From Oscillospiraceae bacterium (GTDB lineage Bacteria; Bacillota; Clostridia; Oscillospirales; Ruminococcaceae), in the NCBI GenBank assembly GCA_017472735.1, contig JAFUOD010000007.1, forward strand, positions 248,001-312,000: a stretch of DNA of 64,000 nucleotides, in the 5' to 3' direction. The notes under the pieces were generated by a model. That model was not told the origin of the DNA and did not search any database. It saw only the letters and a list, made by a program, of their open reading frames with translations. The position numbers and the translations under genes were made by a program. Below are positions 347 through 27,916 of the stretch, in pieces (position 1 is the stretch's first letter; every line of letters begins with the position of its first letter).

Positions 347-2803
347 TTAAACTAAATCTCCGTTTATGTCTGCATATACTCTAACATTCGTAAAACGCTT
401 ATCCTTATAAGCCGCAAGCAGAAGGTTGGAAATAAAGCTTCTGAACTTGGCATTTACTCGGCATTTAAGCGTTAAAGCATATTTATATCTGTTATTAATT
501 CTTCCCTGTCCCGATTTTGCAGGACCCAAAACACGAAGCGGGAATTTTTCGCCCGACCCGCTTAATTCTTCCTTCATCAAGTCAACAAAAGCGTTAGCGC
601 ATTTAATGGCATCTGTTTCAACAGGTGAGCTGAAATAGATAGCACATATATCGCAAAACGGCGGGTAGATAAGCTGCTTTCTAAGTGCGATCTCCTGCGA
701 ATAGAACTCTTTATAATCCTGCTGAGAAGCAAGAGAGATTATGTGATGATCGGGTACATTTGTCTGAATGTAAGCAACAGCGGGAGCATCTCCTCTCCCT
801 CCTCTGCCAACTACTTGAGTTAACAAAGAGAAGGTGCGCTCATAGCTTTTGTAATCGTCTGCAAAAAGAGAATTATCAAGCGAAATCACTCCGACAACCG
901 TAACATTTGGGAAGTCCAGTCCTTTTGCAATCATCTGTGTACCGACCATGATATCGTATTCGCCGTTTTCAAATGCTTTGAATTTTTCTTCATAAGCACA
1001 GCGAGAGCAAGTCGTGTCAGCATCCATGCGCAGAACTCTGGCATTCGGGAATGCATTTTCAAGCTCCTCTGCCAAAAGCTGCGTGCCGAGACCTGTTGCC
1101 ATTACTTCATCACTGCCGCAATCGGGGCATTTGCCGCTAAAGCGTGAGGAATATCCACAGTAATGGCACATTAGTTTATCGTTAGATTTATGGTAAGTTA
1201 ATGGTATGGCGCAATTTGGGCATGAAACCGTTTTTCGACATCCTTTGCAAGTTATGTGTGTATTATATCCTCGCCTGTTTAAAAGCAAAATTGCTTGCTT
1301 TCCATTCTTTATAGCCTCATCAACAGAGCGCACCAAATCCTCACAAAAAAGGCTTGTGTTGCCCATTTCAGCTTCAAGTGTCATATCTGCTACAACTACC
1401 TGAGGTAATTTAGTATCGCCGTAGCGGTTGTTAAGCTCGAAAAGGCTGTATCTGCCCGATTTGGCATAATAATAGCTTTCAAGCGAAGGTGTGGCAGAGG
1501 CTAACACCAGCACGCTGTTGTGTGTGCCGCAACGCTGAATTGCAACCTCACGCGCGTGGTAACGTGGCGAAGATTCGGACTTATAGGAGCTTTCGCCTTC
1601 TTCGTCCATAATAATCACACCAATGTTCGATAACGGTGCAAACACAGCACTTCTTGTGCCGATAACGATTTTTGCAAGTCCGTTTTTAATACGCTTGAAT
1701 TCATCCAACCTTTGCCCTAAAGAAAGACTTGAATGAATTACAGCAACGATATCACCAAACATTGCTTTGAATCTGCCTACAAGCTGAGGGGTCAACGAAA
1801 TCTCGGGCACTAAAAGCATGGCTGTTTTGCCTTGCTTAACGCAAGAGTCTATCAGCTTTATAAATACCGCTGTTTTGCCGCTGCCGGTTACACCGTGAAG
1901 CAATGCACCCGCGGGCTTATCAGCGCATATAAGCTGCATTATGCCGTTATATGCCGACTGCTGTTCGTCAGACAAAACTATATCATCGGGGTCAGTCTTC
2001 TCACGTTGCGAAAACTCAGGGGTACGGAATGTTTCGTAAGAATATTCCTCAATTATACCCTTTTTAAGCATATTCGAGATTATTGTTTGAGTTATGGTTA
2101 ACAAGTAGCACGCTTCTTTAATCGAGGCTGACTCGTTTTCTTCTAAAAGCTCAACAACAAGGCGCTGTTTTGGGGTTAATGCCGTCTCTACCTCTCCACT
2201 AATAAATCGGGGTGAAAGTCGGATCATTCTTATCGTCTCATCGCCTACACGGCGCTTAAACTCATCAGCTCTTTCCAAGACACCTTTTTCTACGAGGCTC
2301 TCAATAACCTTTGCTTTGCCATTGTTAACGCTGTCGTCAAGCAGTAAATCGAACTCTTTTTTGCCTTCACACGCTAAAAGCATTTTGTAAAGCGCTGATT
2401 CTTCATCCGTCATTTCGCAATCAGGCTTCGAGTTTGCCAAGGCGTAAGTGCTTGAATAAACAACCGAATAGCCGGATGGAATTATTGTCCTAAATGCCTC
2501 AAAATAGGTACAAAACGTATGCTCTTTAAGCCATGCTACAAGCGATAAAAGCTCCTCGTTTATAAGGGGTTCTTTATCGATTATGCTTATAATAGGCTTG
2601 ATTTTTTCATCGGGTACTTCTTTCTCATAAACCCTTGTTACCAAGCCTATACGCTTTAAGTTTCCCTTGCCAAACGGTACTAAAACACGCATGCCGGCAC
2701 AAAGCGTACCCAAAAGAATATCGGGATATTTATATGTATACTCGATATCAAAGCCGTAAGCCGTGCCCTGCAAAACAACTTTTGCACAGTGCATATTATT
2801 CAT
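347..2803 (-). CDS. priA: Primosomal protein N' (PriA replication-restart helicase)
   Basis: An 818-residue superfamily 2 helicase that reloads the replisome at stalled forks. The N-terminal 3'-DNA-binding domain covers about residues 1-110. The Walker A motif GVTGSGKT is at 304-311. Walker B reads MDEEG at 399-403, where PriA usually has DEEH. Eight zinc-binding cysteines lie at 519, 522, 528, 531, 546, 549, 559 and 562. The late helicase motif QVVGRGGRG is near 663-671. AAAGGAG about 10 bases upstream sets the start. It lies between rpoZ and def. coaBC, often found before priA in this operon, is absent here. Confidence 0.97.
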   Translation of the reverse strand: MNNMHCAKVVLQGTAYGFDIEYTYKYPDILLGTLCAGMRVLVPFGKGNLKRIGLVTRVYEKEVPDEKIKPIISIIDKEPLINEELLSLVAWLKEHTFCTYFEAFRTIIPSGYSVVYSSTYALANSKPDCEMTDEESALYKMLLACEGKKEFDLLLDDSVNNGKAKVIESLVEKGVLERADEFKRRVGDETIRMIRLSPRFISGEVETALTPKQRLVVELLEENESASIKEACYLLTITQTIISNMLKKGIIEEYSYETFRTPEFSQREKTDPDDIVLSDEQQSAYNGIMQLICADKPAGALLHGVTGSGKTAVFIKLIDSCVKQGKTAMLLVPEISLTPQLVGRFKAMFGDIVAVIHSSLSLGQRLDEFKRIKNGLAKIVIGTRSAVFAPLSNIGVIIMDEEGESSYKSESSPRYHAREVAIQRCGTHNSVLVLASATPSLESYYYAKSGRYSLFELNNRYGDTKLPQVVVADMTLEAEMGNTSLFCEDLVRSVDEAIKNGKQAILLLNRRGYNTHITCKGCRKTVSCPNCAIPLTYHKSNDKLMCHYCGYSSRFSGKCPDCGSDEVMATGLGTQLLAEELENAFPNARVLRMDADTTCSRCAYEEKFKAFENGEYDIMVGTQMIAKGLDFPNVTVVGVISLDNSLFADDYKSYERTFSLLTQVVGRGGRGDAPAVAYIQTNVPDHHIISLASQQDYKEFYSQEIALRKQLIYPPFCDICAIYFSSPVETDAIKCANAFVDLMKEELSGSGEKFPLRVLGPAKSGQGRINNRYKYALTLKCRVNAKFRSFISNLLLAAYKDKRFTNVRVYADINGDLV

Positions 2804-2836
2804 TTGCAGGCACTCCTTTCGGCTTAATATGTTTTC

Positions 2837-3046
2837 TTATTTATTTCTTAAAGAGGGATCTTCAACAAGCTTATATTCGCTTTTTGCAAACTGCTCAACA
2901 GCAGTTTTTACAGGCTTTTCATCAATAATAACCTTGTTTTCATAAGCTTCATCAAGAATATCTCTTGCGCGCTTTGCAACAGCAATTACTAAAGAATAGG
3001 TGCTTTCGTTGTTCTTTAAAATCTGTGAGCTGGAAGGTCTTAACAT
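2837..3046 (-). CDS. rpoZ: RNA polymerase omega subunit
   Basis: A small subunit (69 residues) that helps fold and assemble the beta' subunit of RNA polymerase. The N-terminal MLRPSSSQIL and central YSLVIAVAKRAR segments fit omega, in which the second forms the conserved helix. It starts 2 bases after the gmk stop; the GGAG inside the gmk tail is the likely ribosome site, so translation is probably coupled. The length matches Firmicute omega. The gmk-rpoZ order is conserved. Confidence 0.95.
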   Translation of the reverse strand: MLRPSSSQILKNNESTYSLVIAVAKRARDILDEAYENKVIIDEKPVKTAVEQFAKSEYKLVEDPSLRNK

Positions 3047-3047
3047 G

Positions 3048-3653
3048 TCAGTTCAATACTCCTTTTATTGTATTAGAATTAAATTTTGTCATATATTTGC
3101 AGGACTTCATTATTGTTTCAAGTCCCTCAATAGCATCGATCAGGTTATCGTTAACTAAAACATAATCATAGTTATATGATTTTTCGATTTCGCTTGCGGC
3201 TTCGCCAACACGGCGTTCAATAACGTCTAAAGCCTCGGTTCCTCTGCCGATAAGGCGTTGTTTCAATGCTTCAACATTGGGAGGAAGAATAAAAATCAAA
3301 ACAGCATCGGGATAAGCTTGTTTAACCTTCATGGCGCCTATGGTTTCGATCTCAAGAATTACATCAATACCCGCATCAAGCTTCTCCATAACTTTTGCTT
3401 TAGGCGTGCCGTAATAGTTACCGCAAAATTCGGCATATTCAAACATGCCGCCGTTTGAGATTTCCGATTCAAACTCCTCACGGGTGATGAAGTAATAATT
3501 AATGCCGTTAAGTTCACCATCTCTGGGGCTTCGGGTAGTTGCAGAAACAGAATAGTGGATGTTTTTGAAGTTCTTTAAAACCTCGCTTAAAATTGTGCCC
3601 TTGCCACAGCCGGACGGAGCGGAAAGCACATAAAGAATACCTTTATTCTGCAT
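3048..3653 (-). CDS. gmk: Guanylate kinase
   Basis: It phosphorylates GMP to GDP with ATP. The P-loop reads SAPSGCGKGT near the N terminus, where most homologues have SGVGKST or SGAGKGT. The GMP-binding stretch SATTRSPRDGE and the HYSVSATTR context are present. The length of 201 residues is normal. I chose the second of two ATGs (MQNKG...) because the AAGGAGG site directly abuts the first ATG and sits at proper distance from the second. The start overlaps the end of remA by about 10 bases. Confidence 0.96.
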   Translation of the reverse strand: MQNKGILYVLSAPSGCGKGTILSEVLKNFKNIHYSVSATTRSPRDGELNGINYYFITREEFESEISNGGMFEYAEFCGNYYGTPKAKVMEKLDAGIDVILEIETIGAMKVKQAYPDAVLIFILPPNVEALKQRLIGRGTEALDVIERRVGEAASEIEKSYNYDYVLVNDNLIDAIEGLETIMKSCKYMTKFNSNTIKGVLN

Positions 3654-3897
3654 TTTCATCCTCCTTATCTTCTCCTTTAGAAAGAATATAATCGGCAGTA
3701 CGAGCAGACAAAATAACGTGGTCGGAATCCATTACGATCACCGTTTTTGTCTTCTTTCCATAGGTAGCGTCAATCAGCGTACCCTTGTCCTTAGCCTCCT
3801 GAATAAGTCTTTTTACAGGCGAGGAATCGGGCGAGACAAGCGCAATAATTCTTGACGACGAAACAAAGCATGAATAACCAATATTTATCATTTCCAT
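3643..3897 (-). CDS. remA: RemA-family regulator (DUF370)
   Basis: An 84-residue protein of the RemA/DUF370 family. In Bacillus, RemA is a ring-forming DNA-binding activator of matrix and osmoprotection genes. Family hallmarks seen are INIGYSCFV near the start, the SSRIIALVSPDSSPVKRL segment, and the KTKTVIVMDSDHVILSA stretch. The acidic tail (KGEDKEDENAE) overlaps the gmk start. The yicC-remA-gmk-rpoZ order is a classic Firmicute arrangement and supports the call. Its targets in this organism cannot be told. Confidence 0.93.
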   Translation of the reverse strand: MEMINIGYSCFVSSSRIIALVSPDSSPVKRLIQEAKDKGTLIDATYGKKTKTVIVMDSDHVILSARTADYILSKGEDKEDENAE

Positions 3898-3911
3898 ATT
3901 ATCGCACCGTT

Positions 3912-4790
3912 CTATTCAATATTCTGAATCTGTTCTCTTATTTTTTCAATCGTGCTCTTAAGGTCTACAACCATTCTGGTAATGGTCAGGTCGCTGCACT
4001 TTGAGCCGGTTGTGTTTACCTCACGGTTCATTTCCTGAACTAAGAAATCAAGCTTTTTGCCGATGGGCTCATTAAGCTGCAAAAGTTCACGATACTGAGC
4101 AATGTGACTTCTTAAACGAACGGTTTCTTCATCGACCGCTGTTTTATCGGCAAAAATCGCAGCTTCGGTAAGGATTCTTGACTCGTCAATATTCTTATCG
4201 CCCAGAATATCGCAAAGACGGGTATAAAGCTTTGTGCGGTATTCTTTTGTTACATCGGGAGAGCGTGTCTCTATCTGAGTTACTGTATCCTCGATAAAGT
4301 CGAGTTTTGAAAGAATATCATCTTTGAGTCTTTCGCCCTCGGCAGTTCTCATCGCAATAAAGCTGTCAAGCGCTTCATTAGCGGTTTCGCTTACCAAAGA
4401 CCATAGCTCGTCTTCATCAATTTCAGATTTTGAAACGGTGAAGACATCGCTCATTCTGAAAAGCTGAGAAAGCGTTAAGTCGTCTTTAAGGCCAAGCTGT
4501 TCGTTAGCATTTCTTAATGCACTTACGTAGTTGTTTGCAAGCTCTGCATTAACCTCAACAACACAGTCAGAGCCGTTTATGCGGTTTATTGAAACATAGG
4601 TTTCAACCTTGCCTCGGTTTATTTTAGAAGCGAACAAGCTTTTGAGTTTATCCTCTAAAAAAGAATACTGTCGTGAAATTCTTGTCGAAAACTCAAAGAA
4701 TCTATGGTTAACCGAACGCACTTCAACGGTTATCTCGTAAGTGTCAAACGACTTCGAAGCTCTGCCGTAGCCGGTCATACTCTTAGGCAT
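3912..4790 (-). CDS. yicC: YicC-family endoribonuclease
   Basis: A 292-residue YicC/YloC protein. The family was long a stress-induced unknown; E. coli YicC is now reported as an endoribonuclease. The N terminus MPKSMTGYGRAS is the family signature. The C-terminal part carries GKKLDFLVQEMNREVNT followed by SKCSD, also diagnostic. GGATGATT precedes the ATG. It is the first visible gene of the remA-gmk-rpoZ-priA-def operon and diverges from the HD gene on the plus strand, so the operon promoter should lie in 4791-4976. Confidence 0.95.
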   Translation of the reverse strand: MPKSMTGYGRASKSFDTYEITVEVRSVNHRFFEFSTRISRQYSFLEDKLKSLFASKINRGKVETYVSINRINGSDCVVEVNAELANNYVSALRNANEQLGLKDDLTLSQLFRMSDVFTVSKSEIDEDELWSLVSETANEALDSFIAMRTAEGERLKDDILSKLDFIEDTVTQIETRSPDVTKEYRTKLYTRLCDILGDKNIDESRILTEAAIFADKTAVDEETVRLRSHIAQYRELLQLNEPIGKKLDFLVQEMNREVNTTGSKCSDLTITRMVVDLKSTIEKIREQIQNIE

Positions 4791-4976
4791 TTTATAATCA
4801 TCCTTTCATGTTGAAAATAGCATAAGTATATAAGAATCCATAATACACCAATATATAAAAGTATTATAGCACCAATCGTTAAATAAAGCAAGGAATCAGG
4901 CAAAAATTTAAGATAATTTATGATTTGCAACTGATTAAGTTTTGTGATATAATGACATAAGATTGGAGATGGTAAA

Positions 4977-5582
4977 ATGAATTTGATGAACATGGACTTT
5001 AAAAACAGATTTATTGAGATATATAAAGAGAACATTAAGCGTGAGGGTGCCGACAAGCTTTTAGAATATCTTTGCTCTCGCAACTGCGATTTCTTTACGG
5101 CGCCGGCTTCAACAAAGTTCCATTGCTCTTATGAGGGCGGGCTTTGCGAGCACAGTTTAAATGTTTATGACTGCTTGAAATCATACCTTGAAACCGACAG
5201 AGCGAAAGAAAAGTTCGGGCTTTCGTTCTCGGAAGAAACGATCGCTATCGTCTCCCTCTTGCACGATGTTTGCAAGACCAACACCTATAAAGTAAGCATG
5301 AGAAACAAGAAGGACGAAAGCGGAACATGGATTCAGGTGCCTTATTATGAATACAACGACACCCTGCCCTACGGTCACGGTGAGAAATCGGTTTACATTG
5401 TTTCGGGCTTTATGCGTCTGACCCGCGATGAGGCAATGGCTATCCGCTGGCATATGGGCTTCTCGGGCGAGGAGGACAAAAAGCTTGTAGGAAACGCTTT
5501 AAGAGCTTACCCCTTGGCTCTTGCGCTTAACATTGCCGACTGTGAAGCTTCAAGCTTTGTTGAAGAAAGAAATGATAAATAG
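4977..5582 (+). CDS. HD-domain phosphohydrolase of unknown substrate
   Basis: A 201-residue soluble protein with an HD metal-binding fold. The first histidine is in CEHSLNVY (His59), the HD pair is in LLHDVCK (His96-Asp97), and a later His lies in RWHMGF. Such proteins are usually nucleotide phosphatases, phosphodiesterases or oligoribonucleases; the substrate cannot be read from sequence. GGAGAT lies 8-10 bases before the ATG, though the Met codons at positions 4 and 6 are possible alternatives. The gene stands alone, divergent from yicC, and ends at a strong bidirectional terminator. Confidence 0.85.
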   Translation: MNLMNMDFKNRFIEIYKENIKREGADKLLEYLCSRNCDFFTAPASTKFHCSYEGGLCEHSLNVYDCLKSYLETDRAKEKFGLSFSEETIAIVSLLHDVCKTNTYKVSMRNKKDESGTWIQVPYYEYNDTLPYGHGEKSVYIVSGFMRLTRDEAMAIRWHMGFSGEEDKKLVGNALRAYPLALALNIADCEASSFVEERNDK

Positions 5583-5583
5583 T

Positions 5584-5621
5584 AAATAGAAATCCCATCT
5601 TTTCAGATGGGATTTCTATTT
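5584..5621. terminator. Bidirectional terminator between convergent genes
   Basis: A perfect 17-bp inverted repeat with a 4-base TTTC loop. It is A/T-rich at the outer ends, so it gives a U-run on both strands. It separates the convergent HD gene and the GNAT gene, whose stop codon overlaps its right arm. Confidence 0.85.
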
Positions 5622-6048
5622 ATATCTTCTTTTTCATGTAGCGTGGCAAATACATCTCGTACCCGTGTTTGGGATAGAAATTCCAAGATTCATAGTAACG
5701 TTCCTTGTCACCAAGATGAACTCTGATCTCTTGAACACCTTTTGCCCTTGCAAAGTCTTCGGCAACTGCCAAAAGTGCAGAGCCAATTCCTTGTCGCTTT
5801 AAAGTCGGCTTGATAAACAGACGGCGAAGCCACATAAAATTATCTTCTGACCTTACACCTACACAGCCTATCACACGGTCATTATCATCAATTGCAAGCC
5901 AGAACATATCGCCGACACTGATATAATTTGCATTAATATCGAATAAGTCATCTCTTAACTTTGGTACGCCGCCTAAAGCATCTTTAGCCGACAGATACAT
6001 ATAAAACAGGTCATCGCGGTATCTGTCATCATATTTAATAATCTTCAT
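5620..6048 (-). CDS. GNAT-family N-acetyltransferase
   Basis: A 142-residue acetyl-CoA-dependent acetyltransferase fold. The segment WLRRLFIKPTLKRQGIGSAL contains the acetyl-CoA pyrophosphate-binding loop (R/Q-x-x-G-x-G/A as RQGIGSA). It is followed by an alpha helix and the C-terminal HYGYEMY-like end typical of GNATs (here HGYEMYLPRYMKK). AAGGAGCAAG directly precedes the chosen ATG; an upstream in-frame extension lacks such a site. It lies downstream of asnS, separated by a terminator. The substrate is unknown. Confidence 0.88.
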   Translation of the reverse strand: MKIIKYDDRYRDDLFYMYLSAKDALGGVPKLRDDLFDINANYISVGDMFWLAIDDNDRVIGCVGVRSEDNFMWLRRLFIKPTLKRQGIGSALLAVAEDFARAKGVQEIRVHLGDKERYYESWNFYPKHGYEMYLPRYMKKKI

Positions 6049-6066
6049 TCTTGCTCCTTGATATAA

Positions 6067-6096
6067 ACTGCCTCCCGCATATAAGAGGAAGGCAGT
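6067..6096 (-). terminator. Probable asnS terminator
   Basis: Inverted repeat ACTGCCT/AGGCAGT with inner CC/GG pairing, just after the asnS stop on the minus strand. The following T-stretch is only moderate. Confidence 0.6.
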
Positions 6097-6112
6097 GCTT
6101 TTATAATTTATA

Positions 6113-7504
6113 TTAGAACTTAAGATTTTTAGGAGTTCTTGCATAAGCGCAAACGTCGCGGATGTTTGCAACACCTGTTACATACATTAAAAGTCTTTCA
6201 AGACCCAAGCCGAAGCCCGAGTGAACAACGCCGCCGTACTTTCTAAGGTCAAGATACCATTCAAGCGATTCGGTCTCCATGCCGATATCTGCCATCTTCT
6301 TAACCAAAACATCATAATTCTCTTCACGCTGAGAGCCGCCGATAAGCTCGCCAACGCCGGGAACAAGCAAGTCGCAAGCTGCAACTGTCTTTCCATCGGG
6401 GTTAAGCTTCATATAGAAAGCTTTAATATCCTTCGGGAAGTCGATCAAGAACACGGGGCCTTTTGCAACCTTGTCGCAAATATAGATTTCGTGTTCTTTT
6501 GCAAAGTCCACGCCCCACTCTACAGGGAATTCAAACTTCTCGCCCGAGTTTTTAAGGTAGTCAACAGCCTCGGTATAGGTAATGACCTTAAAGTCAGAGT
6601 TAACAACTCTATCAAGCTTTTCAATAAGGGTATGATCTTTATCAACAAAATCGTTAAGGAACTTAAGCTCATCGGGGCAGTTTGTCATAACGTCCTTAAT
6701 AACATACTTAAGCATAGCTTCCATTACAGCCATGTCGCCCTTAAGGTCGCAGAATGCCATTTCGGGCTCGATCATCCAGAATTCGGATGCATGGTAAGGA
6801 GTGTTAGAGTTTTCAGCACGGAATGTAGGACCAAAGGTATATACCTTGCCCATCGCAAGAGCAAAAGGCTCAACATGGAGCTGACCCGAAACAGTAAGGC
6901 AAGCGTGCTTGCCGAAGAAGTCTTCAGCGTAGTTGGTATCCTCACGGGTCGTAACAGTGAAGGTCTCGCCCGCACCCTCGGCATCGTTACCTGTAATTAA
7001 CGGTGTGTGAATGTAGGTAAAGCCCTCCTGGCGGAAGAATTCGTGCAGGGACTGAGAAATGATGGAACGAATCTTGAAAACAGCCATAAAGGTGTTTGTT
7101 CTCGGTCTTAAATGAGGGATCTCACGCAAGAACTCAAGCGAGTGGCGCTTTTTCTGCAAGGGGTATGCTGCGTCACATGCGCCCAAAAGCTCAGCTTCGG
7201 TAGCGTTGATTTCAAAAGGTTGCTTAGCCTCGGGGGTGATAATAAGCTTACCTGTGATTTTAACAGCACAGCCGGTTAAAAGCTTAGCGATCTCGGCAAA
7301 GTTAGCAAGCTTATCTTCCTCGTAAACGATCTGAACGCAGCTAAAGCAAGAGCCGTCGTTCATGGAGATGAAACCGATTTTATTATTAGATCTGTTAGTT
7401 CTTATCCAACCTTCAACCGTAACGGTTGCGCCGTCAACAAGCTCGTCGATGGGCATAAGACCCTTAACACTCTTATAAATTTCGTCAAATAAATACTTAC
7501 TCAT
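6113..7504 (-). CDS. asnS: Asparaginyl-tRNA synthetase
   Basis: A 463-residue class IIb synthetase that charges tRNA-Asn. The N-terminal OB-fold anticodon domain (VEGWIRTNRSNNKIGFISMNDG) is followed by the catalytic core. The core has class II motif 2 in FRAENSNTPYHASEFWMIEPE; the N in this motif separates AsnRS from AspRS. Motif 3 is GFGLGLERLLMYVTG near the C terminus. The start MSKYLF has GGAGGAATAT immediately before it. It appears to be a single-gene unit. Confidence 0.96.
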   Translation of the reverse strand: MSKYLFDEIYKSVKGLMPIDELVDGATVTVEGWIRTNRSNNKIGFISMNDGSCFSCVQIVYEEDKLANFAEIAKLLTGCAVKITGKLIITPEAKQPFEINATEAELLGACDAAYPLQKKRHSLEFLREIPHLRPRTNTFMAVFKIRSIISQSLHEFFRQEGFTYIHTPLITGNDAEGAGETFTVTTREDTNYAEDFFGKHACLTVSGQLHVEPFALAMGKVYTFGPTFRAENSNTPYHASEFWMIEPEMAFCDLKGDMAVMEAMLKYVIKDVMTNCPDELKFLNDFVDKDHTLIEKLDRVVNSDFKVITYTEAVDYLKNSGEKFEFPVEWGVDFAKEHEIYICDKVAKGPVFLIDFPKDIKAFYMKLNPDGKTVAACDLLVPGVGELIGGSQREENYDVLVKKMADIGMETESLEWYLDLRKYGGVVHSGFGLGLERLLMYVTGVANIRDVCAYARTPKNLKF

Positions 7505-19238: not shown

Positions 19239-20774
19239 TTACGGATTTGCGGCTCTGCGTCGGTAAATCGGATAATACAAAATAAAGACCCCGGCTATTG
19301 CCAAGGTCTTCGTTTTGTATGGTGCAGTGAGTGATGATAAATCCGAACCAAATGCCTCTTCAATTTCGGCAAAGGTGATTGTTTTTGTGCCTTCCTTATA
19401 GTTGAATGTAATGACTAAGTAATCGTCAAACAGATAGATCGCATTGACGAAGCTATCAATCAGACGGCGGCGGTGGTCAAGCTGTTTCATATTGAGCTTG
19501 CGATACTTGACAAGATATGCGAGTATATCGTCTTTTGTAACTGTGGGTTTGGCAATTTCTTCTTTGAGAATCTGCACCGAGATCTCGCTCTTTTCGGCTT
19601 CGAGCTGCTCAAGACGTTGCTTGGTAGATGCGGTCAGAATTCCTGCTTGAATGGCGTTGACGAGATTGTCAATGCCTTTTTCTATTTCATCAAGCTGCTT
19701 GCGAAGAATCGGGAGAGTGCTGCTCTCGGCATTGAGCTTGGCGATCAGCATATCTGCAAGTCTGTCGAGTAATTCATCGTCAAAGATGAACTTCTGAATA
19801 AGCAGGATTACAACTTCCTCAATCCATTTCTTTTTGATGGTTTTCTTCTTGCACGTTCCGCCCTTGCGTGTGCCTCGGCATTTGTAATAGCGGTGGACTT
19901 CCATCGTATGACTCGTTCCGCTTTCTCCCGTAATCAGACACTTACAATAACCGCAGAACAACTTTGTAGTCAACAGATATTCGTCCTCGGCTTTGTGCTT
20001 GGCGGGAGCTTTCTTGTTTGCGGCGGCTCGCTCTTGAACTTGCTCAAACAACTTGGCAGGAACGATGGCGGGGATTCCATTGGGAACAACCACGTCACGA
20101 TATTGATACTCACCTATGTATCGGCGGTTGTGTAGCATTCGTGTCACGGTGTTAAGACTGATCTTCGTTCCTCGGACGGTGCGGATACCTTTGATGTTTA
20201 ACTCGTCGGTGATCTCTTGCATCGTTGCGCCTTTAGCATATTTCTTAAACGCATCAAGAACAGCAGGCGCGGCAACAGGATCGATTTGGAAGAATTGATT
20301 TTCGTCAACGGTGTATCCGATGGGAAGTGTACCGCCGTTGTATTTACATTTGAGCGCGTTTTCGGTCAGACCTCGCACCACCTTCTCGGAGAGTTCGGCA
20401 GAATAGTATTCCGCTATGCCTTCAAGCACAGACTCAAGCAGAATGCCCTCGGAACCTTCGGAGATGGATTCGGTTGCCGATATGACCTTCACGCCATTCT
20501 TACGAAGAACATACTTGTAGTGTGCCGAGTCGACACGGTTACGAGAAAATCTGTCGAGTTTCCATACAATGACAACATCAAACTTTTTCGCCGCACTGTC
20601 CTTGATCATTTTCAAGAAGTTCGGGCGGTGGTCTGTCTTTGCCGACAAGGCTCTGTCTATGTACGGCTCAAGCAGGGTGATGTCATTCTTCTTGGCAAAG
20701 GCTTGGCATTCACGAAGCTGACCTTCAATGGATTCCTCTCGCTGATAATAGCGAGCATATATTACTCCTGTCAT
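19239..20774 (-). CDS. Large serine recombinase, apparently without catalytic serine
   Basis: 511 residues in the order resolvase domain (1-150), recombinase domain (about 160-260), zinc ribbon (CGYCK...YKCRGTRKGGTC) and coiled coil (about 360-420). Active-site DRFSRNR is intact. The N-terminal motif, normally YARYSS followed by two residues and QREESIEGQ, reads YARYYQREESIEGQ. Three residues including the serine nucleophile are missing, so strand cleavage should be impossible. Its ATG overlaps the stop of the upstream gene (ATGA), giving coupled translation. The last about 25 residues cover a terminator-like hairpin and look unlike the family, as if the native 3' end had been replaced. Confidence 0.9.
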   Translation of the reverse strand: MTGVIYARYYQREESIEGQLRECQAFAKKNDITLLEPYIDRALSAKTDHRPNFLKMIKDSAAKKFDVVIVWKLDRFSRNRVDSAHYKYVLRKNGVKVISATESISEGSEGILLESVLEGIAEYYSAELSEKVVRGLTENALKCKYNGGTLPIGYTVDENQFFQIDPVAAPAVLDAFKKYAKGATMQEITDELNIKGIRTVRGTKISLNTVTRMLHNRRYIGEYQYRDVVVPNGIPAIVPAKLFEQVQERAAANKKAPAKHKAEDEYLLTTKLFCGYCKCLITGESGTSHTMEVHRYYKCRGTRKGGTCKKKTIKKKWIEEVVILLIQKFIFDDELLDRLADMLIAKLNAESSTLPILRKQLDEIEKGIDNLVNAIQAGILTASTKQRLEQLEAEKSEISVQILKEEIAKPTVTKDDILAYLVKYRKLNMKQLDHRRRLIDSFVNAIYLFDDYLVITFNYKEGTKTITFAEIEEAFGSDLSSLTAPYKTKTLAIAGVFILYYPIYRRRAANP

Positions 20775-21808
20775 TCAAACCCTCCTTCTATGCAATTTGC
20801 GGGAACATTATTTCGAATTTTGCCAAAGTATCTGTTAGCTTGGGTTTTCCTTCTTATTTCTTTTAGATATTGAGGTACAGCACGCACTTCTTTTACTGAC
20901 AAAACATCCAAAAAGGCGGTAGCGAAAGCCGCAGTAGGTTCAACACTTCCATTAATCAATGAAGCAACACTTGAGCAAGAGAGGAAGAGCGATGCAGTGG
21001 CAATACCGAGAGATTGTAGTATTTTTGCAATCTCCTCGCGAATTTTTAATTGAGAATTAAATGACATATTGGGGTCATCATCTCTAACTTTTAAGTATTT
21101 TTCAATCTCGTAGGTATAAGCTCTTCGACAATTTTCAAAGTCTCTGTTTTGTCTTAACTTTATAATTTGATTCATAGGAATATCTTTGATCCTACATGGA
21201 ATCGCAAATTCTATTTGGGTTTTGGCAATCTTATAATGCAATTTTTGAGATCTACAAATTATTCTATCATTCTTTTCTAATAGGATATTGTATTTACTAA
21301 CATCTGTAAGCATTTCAAGCTCTTGTCTCTTTGCAATTACATCCGCCAAAAAACTCATATAGGCAAAAGCTAAATCATTCGAAATTAAGATTCCGTAATC
21401 GAAGGGAGTTGCCAATCCATTTTCTAAACAAAAATCAAAAAACACTGGAGAAAATTTGCCTTCATACAAACGGCAATTTTGAAATCGGGGATTCCTCCAA
21501 TTGTTAACCAACTCTAATGATTGCGAGCGTGAAAAGAATGATGAATACCTTTCGGGATGATTTAAGTATTTTTCAAATTCTTCACACGCTATGATCGAGG
21601 CAATGTTGCCTTCTTCATACTCTGGGTGATATGGGCGAATTAGATTCGTATTATTCATTACATCTATCGCAGTTTGCGAAAGATATTGATTCTCCTTTAC
21701 CCACATATATGGAATGATAGGACGCAACTCTTCAAAATACAATAAAGCAAACTTTAACCACGATTCATCTTTCACTTCAAAACCGGGATAATAAATCATA
21801 CTTTTCAT
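20771..21808 (-). CDS. Uncharacterised protein, possibly DUF6236 family
   Basis: 345 residues, soluble, no signal peptide. The opening MIYYPGFEVKDESWLKFALLYFEELRPIIP recalls DUF6236 proteins (as recalled, begin YYP...W...ALLYWD), of unknown function; the assignment is tentative. The middle is rich in Arg, Lys and aromatics. A Ser/Ala-rich hydrophobic stretch near 275-310 might be a buried helix. GAGGGG lies 8 bases before the chosen ATG; a GTG three codons upstream abuts it too closely. It starts 5 bases after the upstream small gene stops and its TGA overlaps the recombinase ATG, so the three genes form one coupled unit. Confidence 0.6.
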   Translation of the reverse strand: MKSMIYYPGFEVKDESWLKFALLYFEELRPIIPYMWVKENQYLSQTAIDVMNNTNLIRPYHPEYEEGNIASIIACEEFEKYLNHPERYSSFFSRSQSLELVNNWRNPRFQNCRLYEGKFSPVFFDFCLENGLATPFDYGILISNDLAFAYMSFLADVIAKRQELEMLTDVSKYNILLEKNDRIICRSQKLHYKIAKTQIEFAIPCRIKDIPMNQIIKLRQNRDFENCRRAYTYEIEKYLKVRDDDPNMSFNSQLKIREEIAKILQSLGIATASLFLSCSSVASLINGSVEPTAAFATAFLDVLSVKEVRAVPQYLKEIRRKTQANRYFGKIRNNVPANCIEGGFE

Positions 21809-21813
21809 AAATT

Positions 21814-22146
21814 TCACCCCTCTTTATATGCAATCTTGCTATTTGTTAAGGCTGACGACTTGTTTTCCACCTCTTGCTCTTTCTTCCACGCTTCAAGCTC
21901 GGCGCGCCATTCATTCGAGGAGAAGAATTTTATAACACCGGGCAGGAGAACATCGGCAAGAGATTCAATTTCATCGTCGGGGATATCCAACCCCATGTTC
22001 GTGCCGCCGTGCTTGTCCTTTAGAATCGCAATGATTCTTTTGCGCAGCGCATCAACGTTAATTTGTGGAAGTTCCATGTAAACCCACGTGGTATGCTTAT
22101 CCTTTAGAATGTCGATCATTCTATTTAATATTTCTTTGATGTTCAA
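21814..22146 (-). CDS. Small island protein of unknown function (TTG start)
   Basis: 110 residues that I do not recognise. A perfect GGAGGT lies 9 bases before an in-frame TTG, giving the start LNIKEILNRMIDILKDKH; this fits better than any upstream ATG, all of which fall inside the hairpin array. The N terminus repeats a pattern: MIDILKDKH then IIAILKDKH about 30 residues later, which suggests a short internal duplication. The C-terminal half has an acidic segment (DIPDDEIESLADVLLPGV) and a charged helix (SNEWRAELEAWKKEQE). It is the first gene after the repeat array. Confidence 0.6.
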   Translation of the reverse strand: MNIKEILNRMIDILKDKHTTWVYMELPQINVDALRKRIIAILKDKHGGTNMGLDIPDDEIESLADVLLPGVIKFFSSNEWRAELEAWKKEQEVENKSSALTNSKIAYKEG

Positions 22147-22166
22147 GATACATTTACCTCCTAAGG

Positions 22167-22521
22167 TTTTGTCTGTCATGACAAAAGCAGTGCTTGCTAA
22201 GACTAATAGACGGATTTGGATGCCCAAATCCAGTGCTTGCTAAGGCTGACAGACAGCTTTGGGACACAAAGGCAGTGCTTGCTGCGACTGATGTATTTTC
22301 ATTCGGTTGGATTTGGGCGTCCAACCGCGATGCTTGCTAAGACAAGCAGACACGTTGAATATATTTTCATCTTCCGTTGGGATTTGGGACACAACGGCGA
22401 TGCTTGCTGAGACCGTTGGACCGTTTGTCATGGCAAACGCGATGCTTGCTAAGACCAACGGACATTTTGGCAAGAATGGCTTTTGGATGCCCAAAAGCAG
22501 TGCTTGCTAAGACTGATAGAC
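22167..22521 (+). repeat. Array of seven hairpin-plus-core repeats
   Basis: Seven head-to-tail units. Each has a hairpin with its own stem sequence, 2-4 bases, then a shared core near TGCTTGCTAAGAC that often ends in GAC about 8 bases later. Cores start at 22191, 22234, 22276, 22331, 22401, 22443 and 22501, so spacing varies from 42 to 70 bases. Stems include TTTTGTC/GACAAAA, GGATTTGG/CCAAATCC, CTTTG/CAAAG, CGGTTGGA/TCCAACCG, CCGTTG/CAACGG, CGTTTG/CAAACG and GCTTTTGG/CCAAAAGC. Stem bases differ between units but always pair, so structure is kept rather than sequence. It fills the gap between the LexA-like gene and the small TTG gene. It encodes no plausible protein. Confidence 0.9.
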
Positions 22522-22534
22522 AAGCAGAGCGTTG

Positions 22535-23140
22535 TCAAAGTTTCTTGATAACCTGCGTAGCAATTCCTTGAATTTGAACATCGCGTTCAATGCGATCATC
22601 ATAATCGGGATTTTCGGCGTGGAGCAAATAAGCTTTCTTATCGGGAAGATAGGTGATGGTTTTGAGTAAGGTTTCAGTTCCGTTTACAAGGACAACCGCA
22701 TACTCGCCGTCCCTGCAAGTGTTCTGCTCACGCACGATAACGAGATCACCATCGCCAACTCCGATGCCCGTCATTGAGTCACCTTTCGCGGTCAGAATGA
22801 AAAACTTTCCGTCACCGACAAGCGCGGTAGGCAACGGAATGATGTCCGCTTCTTCCACGTTCGGCTCACTCGGCAACCCACAGGACACCGTAGAATCGTA
22901 TCGAATCGCGGGCGTTGTTTCAAACATATTGCGCGAAAGGTTGGTGCCGATGCTGCGGCGACCGTTGTACTCGATCTCGCCGTGTTCTTTCATATCGGTG
23001 AGGTATCTCTGCACCGAGGTCTTGGAGATACCCGTGCCCGCCGCGATGTCGCGCACCGTCGGGGACTTGCGATTCTCCATAAAATATTCGTCAATAAACT
23101 CGCGGATTGCCTCCGCTCTTTCTGGACTCCACTTATTCAT
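22535..23140 (-). CDS. LexA-type self-cleaving repressor of the island
   Basis: 201 residues. An N-terminal winged helix (PTVRDIAAGTGISKTSVQRYL, about 26-47) is joined to an S24 LexA/UmuD-like autoprotease domain. Catalytic Ser122 is in AKGDSM and Lys160 in LLKTIT. The likely cleavage site is Cys87-Gly88 in STVSCGLPSE, a C-G bond as in some phage repressors instead of the A-G bond of LexA. GGAGGCATTT sets the start. Its promoter carries a perfect palindrome, so it probably represses itself and is relieved by RecA-driven cleavage after DNA damage. It may be a second, element-borne LexA rather than the host's own. Confidence 0.9.
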   Translation of the reverse strand: MNKWSPERAEAIREFIDEYFMENRKSPTVRDIAAGTGISKTSVQRYLTDMKEHGEIEYNGRRSIGTNLSRNMFETTPAIRYDSTVSCGLPSEPNVEEADIIPLPTALVGDGKFFILTAKGDSMTGIGVGDGDLVIVREQNTCRDGEYAVVLVNGTETLLKTITYLPDKKAYLLHAENPDYDDRIERDVQIQGIATQVIKKL

Positions 23141-23161
23141 AAATGCCTCCAAATTACGCAA

Positions 23162-23212
23162 GGTACAAATGTACCGCGTGTAAATTATAGCATACGAAAG
23201 AAAGTTTGTCAA
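23162..23212 (-). promoter_or_regulatory. Promoter and operator of the LexA-like gene
   Basis: On the minus strand: TTGACA (23207-23212), a 17-base spacer, TATAAT (23184-23189), then a perfect inverted repeat GGTAC-AAAT-GTACC (23162-23175) about 8 bases downstream of the -10 box. The promoter matches consensus exactly. The palindrome overlaps the expected transcription start, the usual place for a self-repressor's operator. Confidence 0.8.
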
Positions 23213-23252
23213 TAGGTTTTGGTGAAAATCTAAACTGATAATCACAAAGAAA

Positions 23253-23552: not shown

Positions 23553-25865
23553 TTAAGTTTTTCGTTTGCTAATGCTTTTTCTACAAATAGGACAACTGCT
23601 TCCTTTGCTTCTGTTTTCAATAGATGCTTGCCATTCATGTCCTTTTTTACATAGCCACCATACCTTTTTATGAGATCCTGGCGATACCATTGTTGGCAAT
23701 AGAACTCCGTTTTTATCTGGATGCCATTCAGTGGCAAGATTAGGATTTGTAGTTGCTAAATCATTATATCCGCTTAATATTTTCTTGCCTGAGCAGTATG
23801 GGCATCCTCTGCCTTTTGCTCGATTAGCAATTGTTGCCTGCCACTCATGTTCTAACGAACACTTCCACCAAACATTTCTGCCAGAGTGAAGTCATACCAT
23901 TGAGGGGGTCAAATCCCCATTTCTTTCAAGATTCCATTCGGCTGCAAGTGTTGGATTGTGCGAAGCAAGATCGTTGACTCCGGATTCTATTATTTTACTT
24001 GAACAATAAGGGCAACCTTTACCGTTACTTCTATGATAAATTGCTGTTTGATAATCCTTGTTACAAACTGGACAAATCCACCAAACTTTTTGGCCAGCGC
24101 CTGCAGAGACCATAGAGGGCAGTAAATCTCCATTTTTTGTTGGATGCCATTCAGAAGCGATTTCGGGGTTCGTTGTGCACAAGTCATTATAGCCACTCAG
24201 TACCTTTTGCCCAGCGCAATATGGACATCCAAGACCACCTGAGGTTCTACTGCTTACAACAGCCTGCCATTCGTGCCCATTTTCGCATTTCCACCAAATT
24301 TTTTTATTTGAATTAGGCATTATCATTTCAGGCTTTAAGGATAAGTTTTTTTCAAAATTCCACTGTTTAGCTATTTCAGGATATTTGCTTGCTAAACTGT
24401 TTTCTTTTTCAAGGGCGATATACTGATTATAAATTTTAGATTCGTCTCTTGAAGCATCAATAGAAATATTGTCACTCTCAAGTAATTCAAATAGTCTTTG
24501 GATTGCCCAGTTTAACGAAGCTTTATTTGAAGAATTATAGATGTATTCTATTGTGTCACCAAATACAGCATTTTGATCGCTCTCGGCAACTGTGATTATT
24601 CTTATACCTTTTTTAGAAAAAAACTTCACCTTGTCTTTATCAGCGTCTTTTTTGTTTTTATGCCAAAATACACCATTGTATTCAATTCCAATTTTGTATT
24701 CTGGAAGATAAATGTCAATTTCTTTTCCGAAATCTACATTTCTACTTTCGGCATATGTTATTTGCTGACAATAATACAAAATGGTCTGTTCGGGGAAAGA
24801 AGTCTTATTTTCCAACCAACATACGGGACACCCTGTCTTCAAGCGAGTTCTACTGCTTACAACAGCCTGCCATTCATGCCCCTTGCGGCAGCTCCACCAC
24901 ACTTTTTTTGAGGATCCCGCTGTAACCATAGTTGGTAGCAAATCGCCGTTTTTTGATGTATTCCATTCTTTAGCAATATCGGGATATAAAGTTGCTAAAT
25001 CGTTAAATCCTGATAGTGCTCTGTGTCCGGAACAATATGGGCACCCGTTTCCATTAACTCGCTCTGCAACCGTCGCTTGCCATTCGTGACCATCAGTGCA
25101 ATTCCACCAAACTTTTCTACCAGACCCTGCAGTAACCATTGTAGGCAACAAGCCACCATTTTTTGTTGGATGCCATTCAGAGGCTACTTCAGGGTTAGTT
25201 GTGTGTAAGTCATTATAGCCACTCAATACTTTTTGCCCAGAGCAATATGGACAGCCGTTTCCATTAACTCTATTTGCAATCGTCGCTTGCCATTTGTGAC
25301 CATTATTGCAATTCCACCAAACTTTTTTACAAGATCCTGCAGTGACCATTGTTGGTAATAAATTACCGTTTTGAGACCTGTCCCACTCTGCAGCAACATC
25401 CGGATATAAAGTTTCTAAATCATTAAATCCCAACAATACTTTATTTCCAGAACAATACGGGCAACCAGTATTTTCTCTTACACGTTTTTCAACTGCCGCT
25501 TCCCATTCATGCCCAAACGAACACTTCCACCAAACTTTTTTGCCTGATCCTGGAGATACCATAGTTGGGAGCAAATCGCCATTTTTAGCTACATTCCACT
25601 CTGTAGCAATATCAGGATATAATGTTGCTAAATCATTGATTCCTGATGTTGCTTTTCGGCCTGAACAATAGGGACAACCTGTATTGCGAATAGCTCGATT
25701 AGCAATTGGTGCTTGCCACTCGTGCCCATTAGAGCACTTCCAATACGCTTTTCTATTACTACCTATAACAAGTTCGCGTGGTATCAGTCCTATCTGGTTG
25801 TTTTTCTCCCAATCCCACTCTGCCATCAATTCGGCGTTGTTAATTATGTATTTCTTTTCCTTCAT
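23553..25865 (-). pseudogene. Nine-unit zinc-ribbon protein with nuclease domain, broken by TGA
   Basis: A repeat protein of about 770 codons. Units of 70-71 residues carry WWxCxxGHEWQA...GCPYCSG zinc ribbons (DUF4379-type probable zinc ribbon). Five precede a domain at about 354-430 with FPEQ, EIDIYLPEY and IGIEYNGVFWH, which fits a PD-(D/E)XK (Vsr-like) nuclease. Further ribbons follow. After residue 657 a TGA (23892-23894) interrupts unit 8, yet the same frame continues for 112 codons through ribbons 8 and 9 to a TAA at 23553. A single TCA-to-TGA change would explain it. The part before the stop still holds seven ribbons and the nuclease, so a shortened product may be active. Neighbouring AbiH suggests phage defence (inference). 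Confidence 0.85.
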
Positions 25866-25936
25866 CGCAAGTCCTTATTAATATTCAAGTAATATCTGGT
25901 TTCGCCTCAAAAGTAAGCGTTATGATATTGTTGGTG

Positions 25937-26956
25937 TCAAACATTTTCTTTCTCCACTACAATATTCTCAAAAGTAAATATTTTGGAATTAGGAACCACA
26001 ATTATTTTATCTTGAATCGTTTCCATAATTTTCTCATCTGTACACTTACTTCGATTCAACATATTCGATCTTTTAGCATCTCTAAATCGTATTTTTTCTT
26101 GTCCCGAAAGTTGTACCATTGTATTTTCATTAACAAACAAAACTAATCTGTTTTCAGTACTCTTGCTTAACCATTGAATAATATACGACCACCACAAAGC
26201 ATCGGTGTCTCCAATAGAAAGTCCAAAAAGACAAATATATCTGCTTTTATCAATAATATCTTTGGCAATTTCCGTTTTTCTCTCGCCCAATGCCTTATTA
26301 ACCGTAGACTTAATAATATAATTTGTTAAACGAGGATTGTTTTTTAACTTCTCATTCATGATTTGATCTTTATTATCCAATCCCAAAATCAAATCTTCAG
26401 TCTACTTACCGTGAATATGATGTGCAGATTTCACAGTATCATTATGACCTGTACCACCAGACGAATGGTTGCCAAAAGGTTTGCATTTTTGCTGTGCGGC
26501 AAGAATTATCTTATCAAGAACGTCGGTATAATTGAAAGTTATAAATGAATAATTTATAGTTTCACGAATATTTGCAACTGCTTTTTTATAATCATCTTTG
26601 TCAGAGGCATTAAAATCATCAAAGAAGCCGGTTGTTTTCTTTTTGAATTCCTCTGCAATTGCTGATTCATTGGGTATGGAAACCCTTTGATTTTGTAAAG
26701 TTAAATATTCAGAAAGCATTTTTTCCAAGTTCCGCTTACTGTCGAGAAATTCCTCGATTTGAGTTTCATCGATTTTCTCCAAGAAAGCACCTAAACCTAT
26801 TTCCAAATCAGCCCACAATTCATAGTCTTTTGAGATTGATTTTGAAATTAGATCGTTTGGCTTATTCTCCATATAATACTTATAAAAATCTGTATACCTC
26901 GTTTTAAGACCTAAGTTCAGGTCGAAACCATTGCCAATTAAAAATGTTATGTTCAT
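25937..26956 (-). pseudogene. AbiH-family abortive-infection protein, broken by in-frame TAG
   Basis: The reading frame spans 340 codons. The opening MNITFLIGNGFDLNLGLKTRY and the later SFITFNYTDVLD and HHIHGK are AbiH family signatures; AbiH is a lactococcal phage-abortive protein. Right after HHIHGK a TAG (26402-26404) interrupts the gene. The next codons in the same frame read TEDLILGLDNKDQ, the expected continuation, and include the C-terminal CLFGLSIGDTDALWW motif. A 184-residue N-terminal piece could be made, and a second piece only if reinitiated. Spacing to the zinc-ribbon gene is 71 bases, so they probably formed one operon. Confidence 0.88.
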
Positions 26957-27013
26957 CCTGCCTTTTCCTTCTTCTGTATTTTACATAGTCGCTCCGTTTT
27001 TTTGATTAATTAA

Positions 27014-27916
27014 TCAATGTTCTTGCAACACATTCAAATATTCGTCAAGTCTTTCGTCCACATACTCCGCAATCAAATCGATCATAGCACCTGCGTCGTC
27101 ATCGCGGTAGAACGCATCGAAAGCATCGTAGTAACGCTTACGGTCGGTGAACTTTACGTTGATAGGCGGAAAACCATTTCGTATCAATTCAAGATTAAGA
27201 ATCAGTCGTCCCGTTCTTCCGTTTCCGTCGATAAAGGGATGGATACCCTCGAATTCAAGATGGAATCGTGCAATACGCTCAACCGTCGTCATCTGCGTCT
27301 TACGTTCTTCGTTGGTAGCAAGTAATTCGCCCATCTTCGGCTCAATCAAATACGGCTGAACAGGCTCGGTATATGCTCCCATAATACGAACGGGAATACG
27401 GCGATACAGTCCCTTATCCTCGGGGCGGTTCATCAAAACAAGCGCGTGGATGTTCTTGATAACGTATTCCGAAAGCTCTACCTCGTTCTTAGCTATCTCC
27501 TGCACGTAGAGAAACGCATCACGATGTCCTACGGCTTCAAGATGGTCTTTCAGCGGCTTTTGGTCGATAGTCATTCCTTCAAGAGCCAAAGCGGTTTCCT
27601 TTAGCGTAAGGGTGTTGCCCTCAATAGCATTAGAGTTATAGGTAAAGTCAATCATAAACTCCTGCGCAATTCTTTCCACTTCGCCGGGCGTCAAAGGACG
27701 CTTTGTCGAAAGAAGATCGCGCTTCTTTTCAATATCAAGCAAAAGTCCTGTTCTGCCTTTTCTTCCGTCCATAGGCTTTGCTGCGTTAGCGGGGATCATA
27801 TAAAGATTTCCTTTACGGATTACGCCATTGATTTTTCCCTCGGCGCACAAAACACGAACACGACGTGCGGAAATTCCCCATTTCTCAGCGGCTTTTGACA
27901 CCTTAATATATTCCAT
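27014..27916 (-). CDS. Fic-domain protein with inhibitory helix and N-terminal HTH
   Basis: 300 residues. The N-terminal 45 residues look like a MerR-type helix-turn-helix (VSKAAEKWGISARRVRVL). The Fic motif HPFIDGNGRTGR is complete with His226, so AMP transfer or a related reaction onto a protein is expected. The inhibitory motif SNAIEGN (95-101) lies before the core, as in class II self-inhibited Fic proteins; Glu99 would block ATP. Mobile elements often carry such genes. AGGAGGATGCTCTG precedes the ATG. Target unknown. The gene looks intact, unlike its two downstream neighbours. Confidence 0.92.
   Translation of the reverse strand: MEYIKVSKAAEKWGISARRVRVLCAEGKINGVIRKGNLYMIPANAAKPMDGRKGRTGLLLDIEKKRDLLSTKRPLTPGEVERIAQEFMIDFTYNSNAIEGNTLTLKETALALEGMTIDQKPLKDHLEAVGHRDAFLYVQEIAKNEVELSEYVIKNIHALVLMNRPEDKGLYRRIPVRIMGAYTEPVQPYLIEPKMGELLATNEERKTQMTTVERIARFHLEFEGIHPFIDGNGRTGRLILNLELIRNGFPPINVKFTDRKRYYDAFDAFYRDDDAGAMIDLIAEYVDERLDEYLNVLQEH

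Follow-up and report, generated by a model that had tools for sequence, protein, structure and literature searches.

A tandem array of candidate origins of transfer in a putative relaxase-less integrative element of an Oscillospiraceae bacterium

Seven hairpins, each followed by the same short core, lie on the plus strand at 22167-22513 of the window, by which we mean the whole 64 kb stretch of DNA that was analysed. The genes around them run on the minus strand, in the order LexA-like repressor, array, small gene with a TTG start, cargo gene and large serine recombinase, see Table 1. The first-pass annotation had put the array between a LexA-type repressor and a recombinase operon, and the Pfam matches of the two genes agree. 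Relatives of the small-gene protein are present in 38 of 297 genomes of the family; the gene itself holds an internal 32-nt duplication (22010-22041 and 22094-22125, 81% identity).

Table 1. Features of the element and its array, in window coordinates
Feature	Position	Strand	Basis or sequence
Whole integrative element, about 3.9 kb (putative)	19313..23218		homology borders
Large serine recombinase, 511 aa ORF	19239..20774	-	Pfam Resolvase 2.8e-26, Recombinase 1.7e-17, Zn_ribbon_recom 1.3e-09
Cargo gene, weak DUF6236 similarity	20771..21817	-	DUF6236 E 0.0012, short of its cut-off
Small gene, TTG start	21814..22146	-	ORF; Shine-Dalgarno-like stretch (CCTCC on +) at 22157-22161
Unit 1	22167..22186	+	TTTTGTC/GACAAAA; core TGCTTGC 22191-22197
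Unit 2	22212..22231	+	GGATTTGG-atgc-CCAAATCC; core 22234-22240
Unit 3	22257..22271	+	CTTTG-ggaca-CAAAG; core 22276-22282; closest linked centre 3 bases away
Unit 4	22304..22327	+	CGGTTGGA-8 nt-TCCAACCG; core 22331-22337
Unit 5	22374..22397	+	CCGTTG-12 nt-CAACGG; core 22401-22407; closest linked centre 3 bases away
Unit 6	22422..22439	+	CGTTTG-6 nt-CAAACG; core 22443-22449
Unit 7	22479..22498	+	GCTTTTGG-atgc-CCAAAAGC; core 22501-22507; centre 2 bases from GGATATCC
LexA-like repressor (winged helix + peptidase S24)	22535..23152	-	Pfam Peptidase_S24 2.1e-19, HTH_IclR 2e-07
Promoter-like TTGACA-17-TATAAT, right element end, facing into repressor	23184..23212	-	sequence reading

Every unit consists of a perfect stem of 5-8 bp, then 2-4 bases, then the core TGCTTGCT with its TGCTTGC. 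As had been described earlier, all seven units are present, point in one direction and are spaced 42-70 bases apart. The stems are perfectly paired in 7/7 units, as was also claimed: from unit 7 to unit 1 they measure 8, 6, 6, 8, 5, 8 and 7 bp, 48 bp in total. When the seven 34-mers of the array are shuffled by mononucleotide 2000 times, this total averages 6.4 and reaches 23 at most, and no shuffle (0/2000) has all seven stems at 5 bp or more. Two details of the earlier description stand only in part. The core had been written TGCTTGCT(A/G)AGAC, which is exact in five of the seven units; unit 2 ends in AAGGC and unit 3 in GCGAC, and TGCTTGCT is what all seven units have in common. The stems had been called all different from each other, which is true mainly of their outer bases, while the inner ends are mostly TTG...CAA.

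The core alone has 12 matches in the window at up to two mismatches, compared with 6.2 expected, and 2 of 100 shuffles reach 12. By itself this count is weak; the arrangement of the units is what is non-random. The array region also folds better than shuffled sequences, with a z-score of -5.5 on the plus strand and -4.2 on the minus strand. However, palindromes must fold on both strands, so folding cannot separate RNA from DNA.

In the genome of the window (1.94 Mb) two-unit patterns match at the array only, and the 12 one-mismatch core matches elsewhere lack the hairpin when inspected by eye. The two-unit pattern was not found in the 30 other genomes of the same genus that were searched, and nothing in the phage and plasmid collections matched the window array.

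A scan of species genomes for arrays returned at least 118 stretches, with titles for the first 80. Among the matches listed, six loci are of the window kind (L094, L108, L129, L138, L161 and L184) and ten have two or three units with a 36-nt period (L095, L098, L112, L127, L133, L137, L139, L158, L159 and L189); all of these ten except L189 are titled Lachnospiraceae or Roseburia. The ten Lachnospiraceae-type arrays are built of near-perfect palindromes with the centres GTCATGAC, GTATATAC and GGACGTCC. Six of them (L095, L098, L112, L139, L159 and L189) are followed by a small HTH gene, relative to which the array is reversed. L108, which is the same place as L060, has two arrays of four and three units on opposite strands. 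A two-unit array is found in Longicatena caecimuris (L115), where no relaxase was matched. This array belongs to a mobilizable-looking island at 5066-7500 of the locus, with ORFs that by eye resemble a tyrosine integrase, an RHH protein and an AAA-ATPase. Counts of stems and palindromes gave no further array in the remaining stretches listed by the scan. As for viruses, 27 stretches from one scan are by eye simple or coding repeats. In a second scan of 60 stretches, for which palindromes and stems were counted, L266 has one 12-nt palindrome and L254 a coding-like repeat.

The arrays can be compared module by module if they are cut at each core. L161 then contains modules 6 to 1 of the window in order, the contig end cutting the array, and L138 contains 7, 4 and 1. 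L129 contains 7, 5, a variant of 4, 2 and 1; L184 contains 7, 6, 5, a variant of 4, and 1; L094 contains 6, 5, a variant of 4, and the repeat part of 2. In L138, L129 and L184 the absent modules are gone core to core, with the junctions at GCAAGCA. A relaxase can join oriTs (origins of transfer) that lie on the same strand, according to the accessible text of PMC4652767; slippage between repeats of 13-20 nt could equally produce core-joined modules. Inside each array the stems differ, and thus the homologous arrays are not the simple duplications with identical stems that had been named as one alternative.

Units of the same type also stand singly, next to relaxase genes. One unit of the Roseburia array L139 is identical over 31/31 bp (blastn) to one in MT836936.1 (L308), where a single unit is placed about 250 bp upstream of the genes for a MobC-like RHH protein and a relaxase (NikA-like 3.9e-13, MobC 1e-05, Relaxase 2.9e-34). 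A position ahead of MobC and relaxase genes is where oriTs lie, which argues for reading the unit as an oriT. Together with the 31-bp identity it suggests an oriT made of a variable inverted repeat and a conserved core. MT836936.1 was deposited as Bacteriophage sp.; with its MobC, relaxase and oriT-like unit it resembles part of a conjugative element.

The relaxase of MT836936.1 was searched in 197 genomes of the family and matched in 92. Among the matches listed we read 90 relaxase loci, 30 as returned and 60 as stretches upstream of listed relaxases. These relaxases, for which Pfam gives a MobA/VirD2-like domain, we take to be MOBP. The strict motif, GCAAGCA, 2 nt and an inverted repeat, is found at 39 of the 90 loci and is absent from 51. 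With a loose rule (core plus inverted repeat) there are 51 sites at 44 of the 90 loci, compared with 2.6 in first-order Markov sequences. Downstream of the site an ORF was obtained in 49 of 54 sites tried, mostly RHH MobC-like, although a few are in wrong frames.

A second hairpin, of the type TTGGGA..TCCCAAACCC, follows the unit at 36 of the 51 linked sites, against 1/51 in an upstream control of equal size, and is absent from the other 15. It also follows eight of the ten Lachnospiraceae-type arrays. With the same pattern there was no match at the window array and its five sisters, nor at L108 and L115. The second hairpin is not clearly a defining feature of oriT membership. By eye, a small hairpin TTAGGG..CCCTAATACCC occurs after the arrays at L060 (1940-1965 and 2705-2735) and in L115 and resembles the second hairpin of the linked sites; in L108 and L115 it was read as TTAGGG..CCCTAA.

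Exact patterns were used in place of a covariance model. The pattern GCAAGCANNGNNTTTGN{5,10}CAAA is present in 41 of 294 genomes of the family, the window genome included, and the reversed pattern in 0/294. Among the 30 pattern loci listed, eight have a relaxase match (L431, L443, L449, L450, L452, L453, L455 and L456) and three a MobC match alone (L429, L430 and L434). L442 and L446 have one unit beside the small gene and the recombinase, and L440 is the window itself; at the other 16 there is no match to relaxase, MobC, small gene or recombinase within about 3 kb or less. When 20 places were extended to at most 8.1 kb, a relaxase was matched in two (L466 and L478) and in none of the other 18. 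These counts mean that the site GCAAGCATAGCGTTTGGATATCCAAACGC occurs in some places near a relaxase and in others where none is seen close by. Some of the extended stretches without a relaxase resemble, by eye, integrase-bearing islands with one unit.

Further, 200 genomes were searched in the family to which the L139 genome belongs. Ten have a match, in the form of three arrays and nine single sites. Seven of the nine single sites have a MobC match (only 22 residues long at L480), and three of those seven a relaxase match, while L486, L488 and the three arrays (6 loci, 1.6-3 kb) have neither; the MobC search used a single query, by which distant MobCs would be missed.

The variable part of the unit can be compared directly between arrays and relaxase loci. 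We define the palindrome centre as the 8 nt located 12 nt past GCAAGCA. Among relaxase-linked sites, those that share a centre have a same-looking MobC N-terminal strand, for example RKRNIQVKFYVT with GAGTACCC and RKRNVHVQFWLD with GTGATACC, as judged by eye and uncorrected for kinship. Among 61 array units (L115 left out) the centre is identical to one linked to relaxase or MobC in 35 and at most one base off in 44, although the sister arrays are related and the 61 units are therefore not independent. By chance, random 8-mers would match exactly in 0.06% and within one base in 0.6%, and random palindromes in 2.5% and 4.9%. There are 20 distinct array centres, and six of them are matched: GTCATGAC, GGATATCC, GTATATAC, GGACGTCC, GTGATACC and TGATATCA.

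In the window itself an exact centre is seen in one of the seven units. This is unit 1, whose centre GTCATGAC is identical to that of relaxase/MobC-linked sites (L319, L308, L480 and others). Allowing one base raises the number to three of seven: unit 4 is one base from GGACGTCC, which is relaxase-linked at L443, and unit 6 is one base from GTCATGAC and exact in the sister arrays L161, L184 and L094. Units 2 and 7 are two bases off, and units 3 and 5 three. In the sister arrays L094 and L129 unit 2 is a perfect palindrome with the centre GGATATCC, as in the relaxase-linked L338, L466 and L478. Over 20 nt the best matches of the window units to linked sites have 4-8 mismatches. The small number of exact centres in the window would mean either that most helpers are unsampled or that some units have decayed. 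The relaxases of the window genome have two oriT-like sites of their own, both with the centre GAGTACCC, which match no array unit; at a third relaxase locus of this genome no oriT-like site was found.

The DNA that carries the array has ends that can be traced by homology. At the left border, about 19313, homology to L094, L129, L161 and L184 ends, and at the right border, about 23218, homology to L094 and L138. The module is common to five relatives (L094, L129, L138, L161 and L184), of which the L138 stretch stops short of the recombinase. Among these sisters two blocks are homologous at the DNA level, the recombinase (19313-20787) and the stretch of repressor, array and small gene (21869-23218). 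The gap between the two (20787-21869) is filled by other genes, and in L094 it is nearly empty. The slot is seen with the DUF6236-like gene, a SWIM zinc-finger gene, a 387-aa ORF or nothing, and the rest of the element is about 77-92% identical. Our reading, from homology and gene content, is that of an integrative element of about 3.9 kb with swappable cargo.

Both borders adjoin hairpins that by eye resemble intrinsic terminators and differ between elements. The last codons of the recombinase (19239-19313 in the window, and likewise in the sisters) also vary by element and continue into a terminator-like hairpin. DNA next to terminators may be the target of integration, which may in this way alter the C-terminus of the recombinase. 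Some neighbours of the elements should also be mentioned. Beside the window element, 23892-27916 encodes a DUF4379 repeat protein, and ORFs in this stretch presumably resemble AbiH and Fic proteins. In L138, ORFs at about 2700-5000 that resemble a read-through CRISPR array adjoin the element, and in L161 a Gut-1 RNA (Rfam RF01706, 74.8 bits) lies at 3054-3128, just beyond the recombinase end.

Neither the 64 kb window nor any of 17 array loci gave a relaxase match by tblastn with 22 queries from one relaxase lineage; the array loci searched span 3-8 kb, and the Lachnospiraceae elements were covered near the array only.

Given its place in front of a gene, the array may have a regulatory role as a 5' leader. 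The first-pass annotation had considered an RNA ladder in the operon leader, that is, tandem hairpins in a 5' UTR that act as an attenuator or as protein sites controlling integrase expression. In the window, the five sisters and both L108 arrays the units do all face the same way and sit upstream of the point where the small gene or the recombinase begins, the arrays fold better than shuffles, neighbouring stems in L060/L108 could by eye pair alternatively, and the second hairpin of the linked sites is missing at the window array. Against this, the array is reversed relative to the following HTH gene in 6/10 Lachnospiraceae-type loci, single units stand at mobC-relaxase genes, and many centres show more self-complementarity than a hairpin would require. 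Rfam 15 has no match at the gathering cut-off on the array or on the arrays of 13 loci, and for 22100-22560 there is none with an E of 1 or less. Because the orientation differs between the groups and single units are found at relaxase genes, we reject an RNA leader as the main role and consider it quite unlikely.

Another explanation is that the units derive from oriTs but have no current transfer function. Such decay would fit the imperfect palindromes of window units 2 and 6, each perfect in a sister, and the 4/7 window centres that differ by at least two bases from every helper sampled. It fits poorly with the stems, which are still paired in 7/7 units, and with the centres of the other arrays, which match those at relaxase loci; we regard it as very unlikely. 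Operator sites, with palindromes bound by the adjacent repressor, are suggested by the DNA-binding regulator that is often near (LexA-like or HTH_11 by Pfam, XRE-like by eye), but the unit is constant across regulators that are unrelated to each other, the palindromes vary inside one array so that one repressor could hardly read all of them, and identical units precede relaxase genes. Since the repressors differ, we reject operators as most improbable.

Other known repeats can be dismissed briefly. The repeats have only the core in common, the sequences between cores form paired palindromes and are seen again in other species, and no Cas domain is present in six neighbouring proteins scanned, all of which agrees with the earlier statement that the array is not a CRISPR. 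Neither an integron attC array (the units are 42-70 bp apart with no genes between them, and the recombinase is a serine recombinase) nor REP/BIME with RAYT (there is a single array in the genome) matches, although both had been named as alternatives. Type III antitoxin repeats were thought of for the 36-nt period, and no toxin-like gene was noticed among the ORFs read. The idea, from G-U wobble by eye, that the two array groups use opposite strands was dropped.

Since mobC-relaxase genes have a single copy of the same unit beside them, each unit of the array can be read as an oriT. We consider it probable, at roughly 85%, that the units are oriTs of the MOBP-relaxase/RHH-MobC type and that the array belongs to a relaxase-less integrative mobilizable element that uses different helpers. 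DNA hairpin sites for a protein had been among the earlier suggestions; a hairpin followed by a core is the layout of an oriT, and the single units at mobC-relaxase genes point the same way. This reading is based on sequence comparison.

The proposed mechanism is as follows. A unit would comprise the palindrome, 2 nt and the conserved TGCTTGC as the nic region. The element would supply the integrase but no relaxase, and its excised circle would be the substrate. MobC and relaxase of a co-resident conjugative element, i.e. its relaxosome, would bind the matching unit on this circle, and the relaxase would nick within the core and export the element. The different palindromes would be keys to different helpers, with the choice of helper made through MobC. 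The nick itself we place between G and C of TGCTTGC, a guess by analogy. The letters of the nic site are not given in the accessible part of PMC6514445. Nicking and its position, helper choice by MobC, excision and mobilization are thus all predictions from sequence. On the plus strand the inverted repeat is 5' of TGCTTGC in 7/7 units. In known oriTs a hairpin followed by the nic core is the usual order on the transferred strand (PMC4652767, accessible text), and the order in the window array would correspond to this.

The element probably rides with several different helpers. A more general proposal, which we favour with clearly less confidence, is that a 4-kb relaxase-less island keeps a key-ring of up to seven same-strand oriT specificities for unrelated conjugative elements. 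Relaxases, exchanging strands at the nic core, would add or remove keys as whole modules, and in several gut Firmicutes families similar key-rings would have arisen next to serine integrases and, by eye, tyrosine integrases.

Like the window array, REP/BIME palindromes, integron attC arrays and CRISPR arrays consist of short repeats that have hairpins or a conserved core. The window unit differs from them in that its type is linked singly to mobC-relaxase genes. The first-pass annotation knew of no named family that fits; the oriT mimics supply one. In staphylococci such mimics combine a single core with inverted repeats of five subtypes and an RHH specificity protein (PMC8136818, PMC4652767), and some plasmids hold two or three of them (PMC8136818), going by the accessible parts of these papers. 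The mimics of the pWBG749 family, as there described, are similar to the window array in that the carriers lack a relaxase, the inverted repeat varies next to a conserved core, and an accessory RHH protein, SmpO, sets the specificity (PMC8136818, PMC4652767). They differ in having the core CTTATGCTCTT with IR1-IR3, in being on plasmids and in numbering two or three. In contrast, the arrays described here are in integrative elements, have a one-hairpin TGCTTGC unit and contain up to seven of these in tandem, on the same strand within an array.

The iOriT elements (PMC11389934, PMC5704250) are similar in another respect: they have an integrase and an oriT but no relaxase, and the helper gives the mobilization proteins; the accessible text of these sources describes no set of different oriTs in tandem. 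Several oriTs on one mobilizable plasmid also occur, as in pEC156 (PMC11389934, accessible text). A tandem same-strand oriT array was not found in the literature searched, a search to which most subscription papers and bioRxiv preprints are outside scope. Given the known oriT mimics and iOriT elements, the kind is known, while the variant, a tandem array on one strand, looks new.

If the reading is true, the array bears on the largely open question of how relaxase-less integrated islands move, it would show selection for many helpers simultaneously, and the helper range of an island would be readable from its DNA. Further, GCAAGCA, 2 nt and a palindrome would be a simple motif by which to find, in gut Clostridia, the oriTs of conjugative elements as well as the parasites of these oriTs. 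Staphylococcal plasmids with two oriTs are reported, in the accessible text of PMC4652767 and PMC8136818, to have no same-strand pairs. The array would stand in contrast to that absence, and would make relaxase-driven loss between adjacent oriTs testable.
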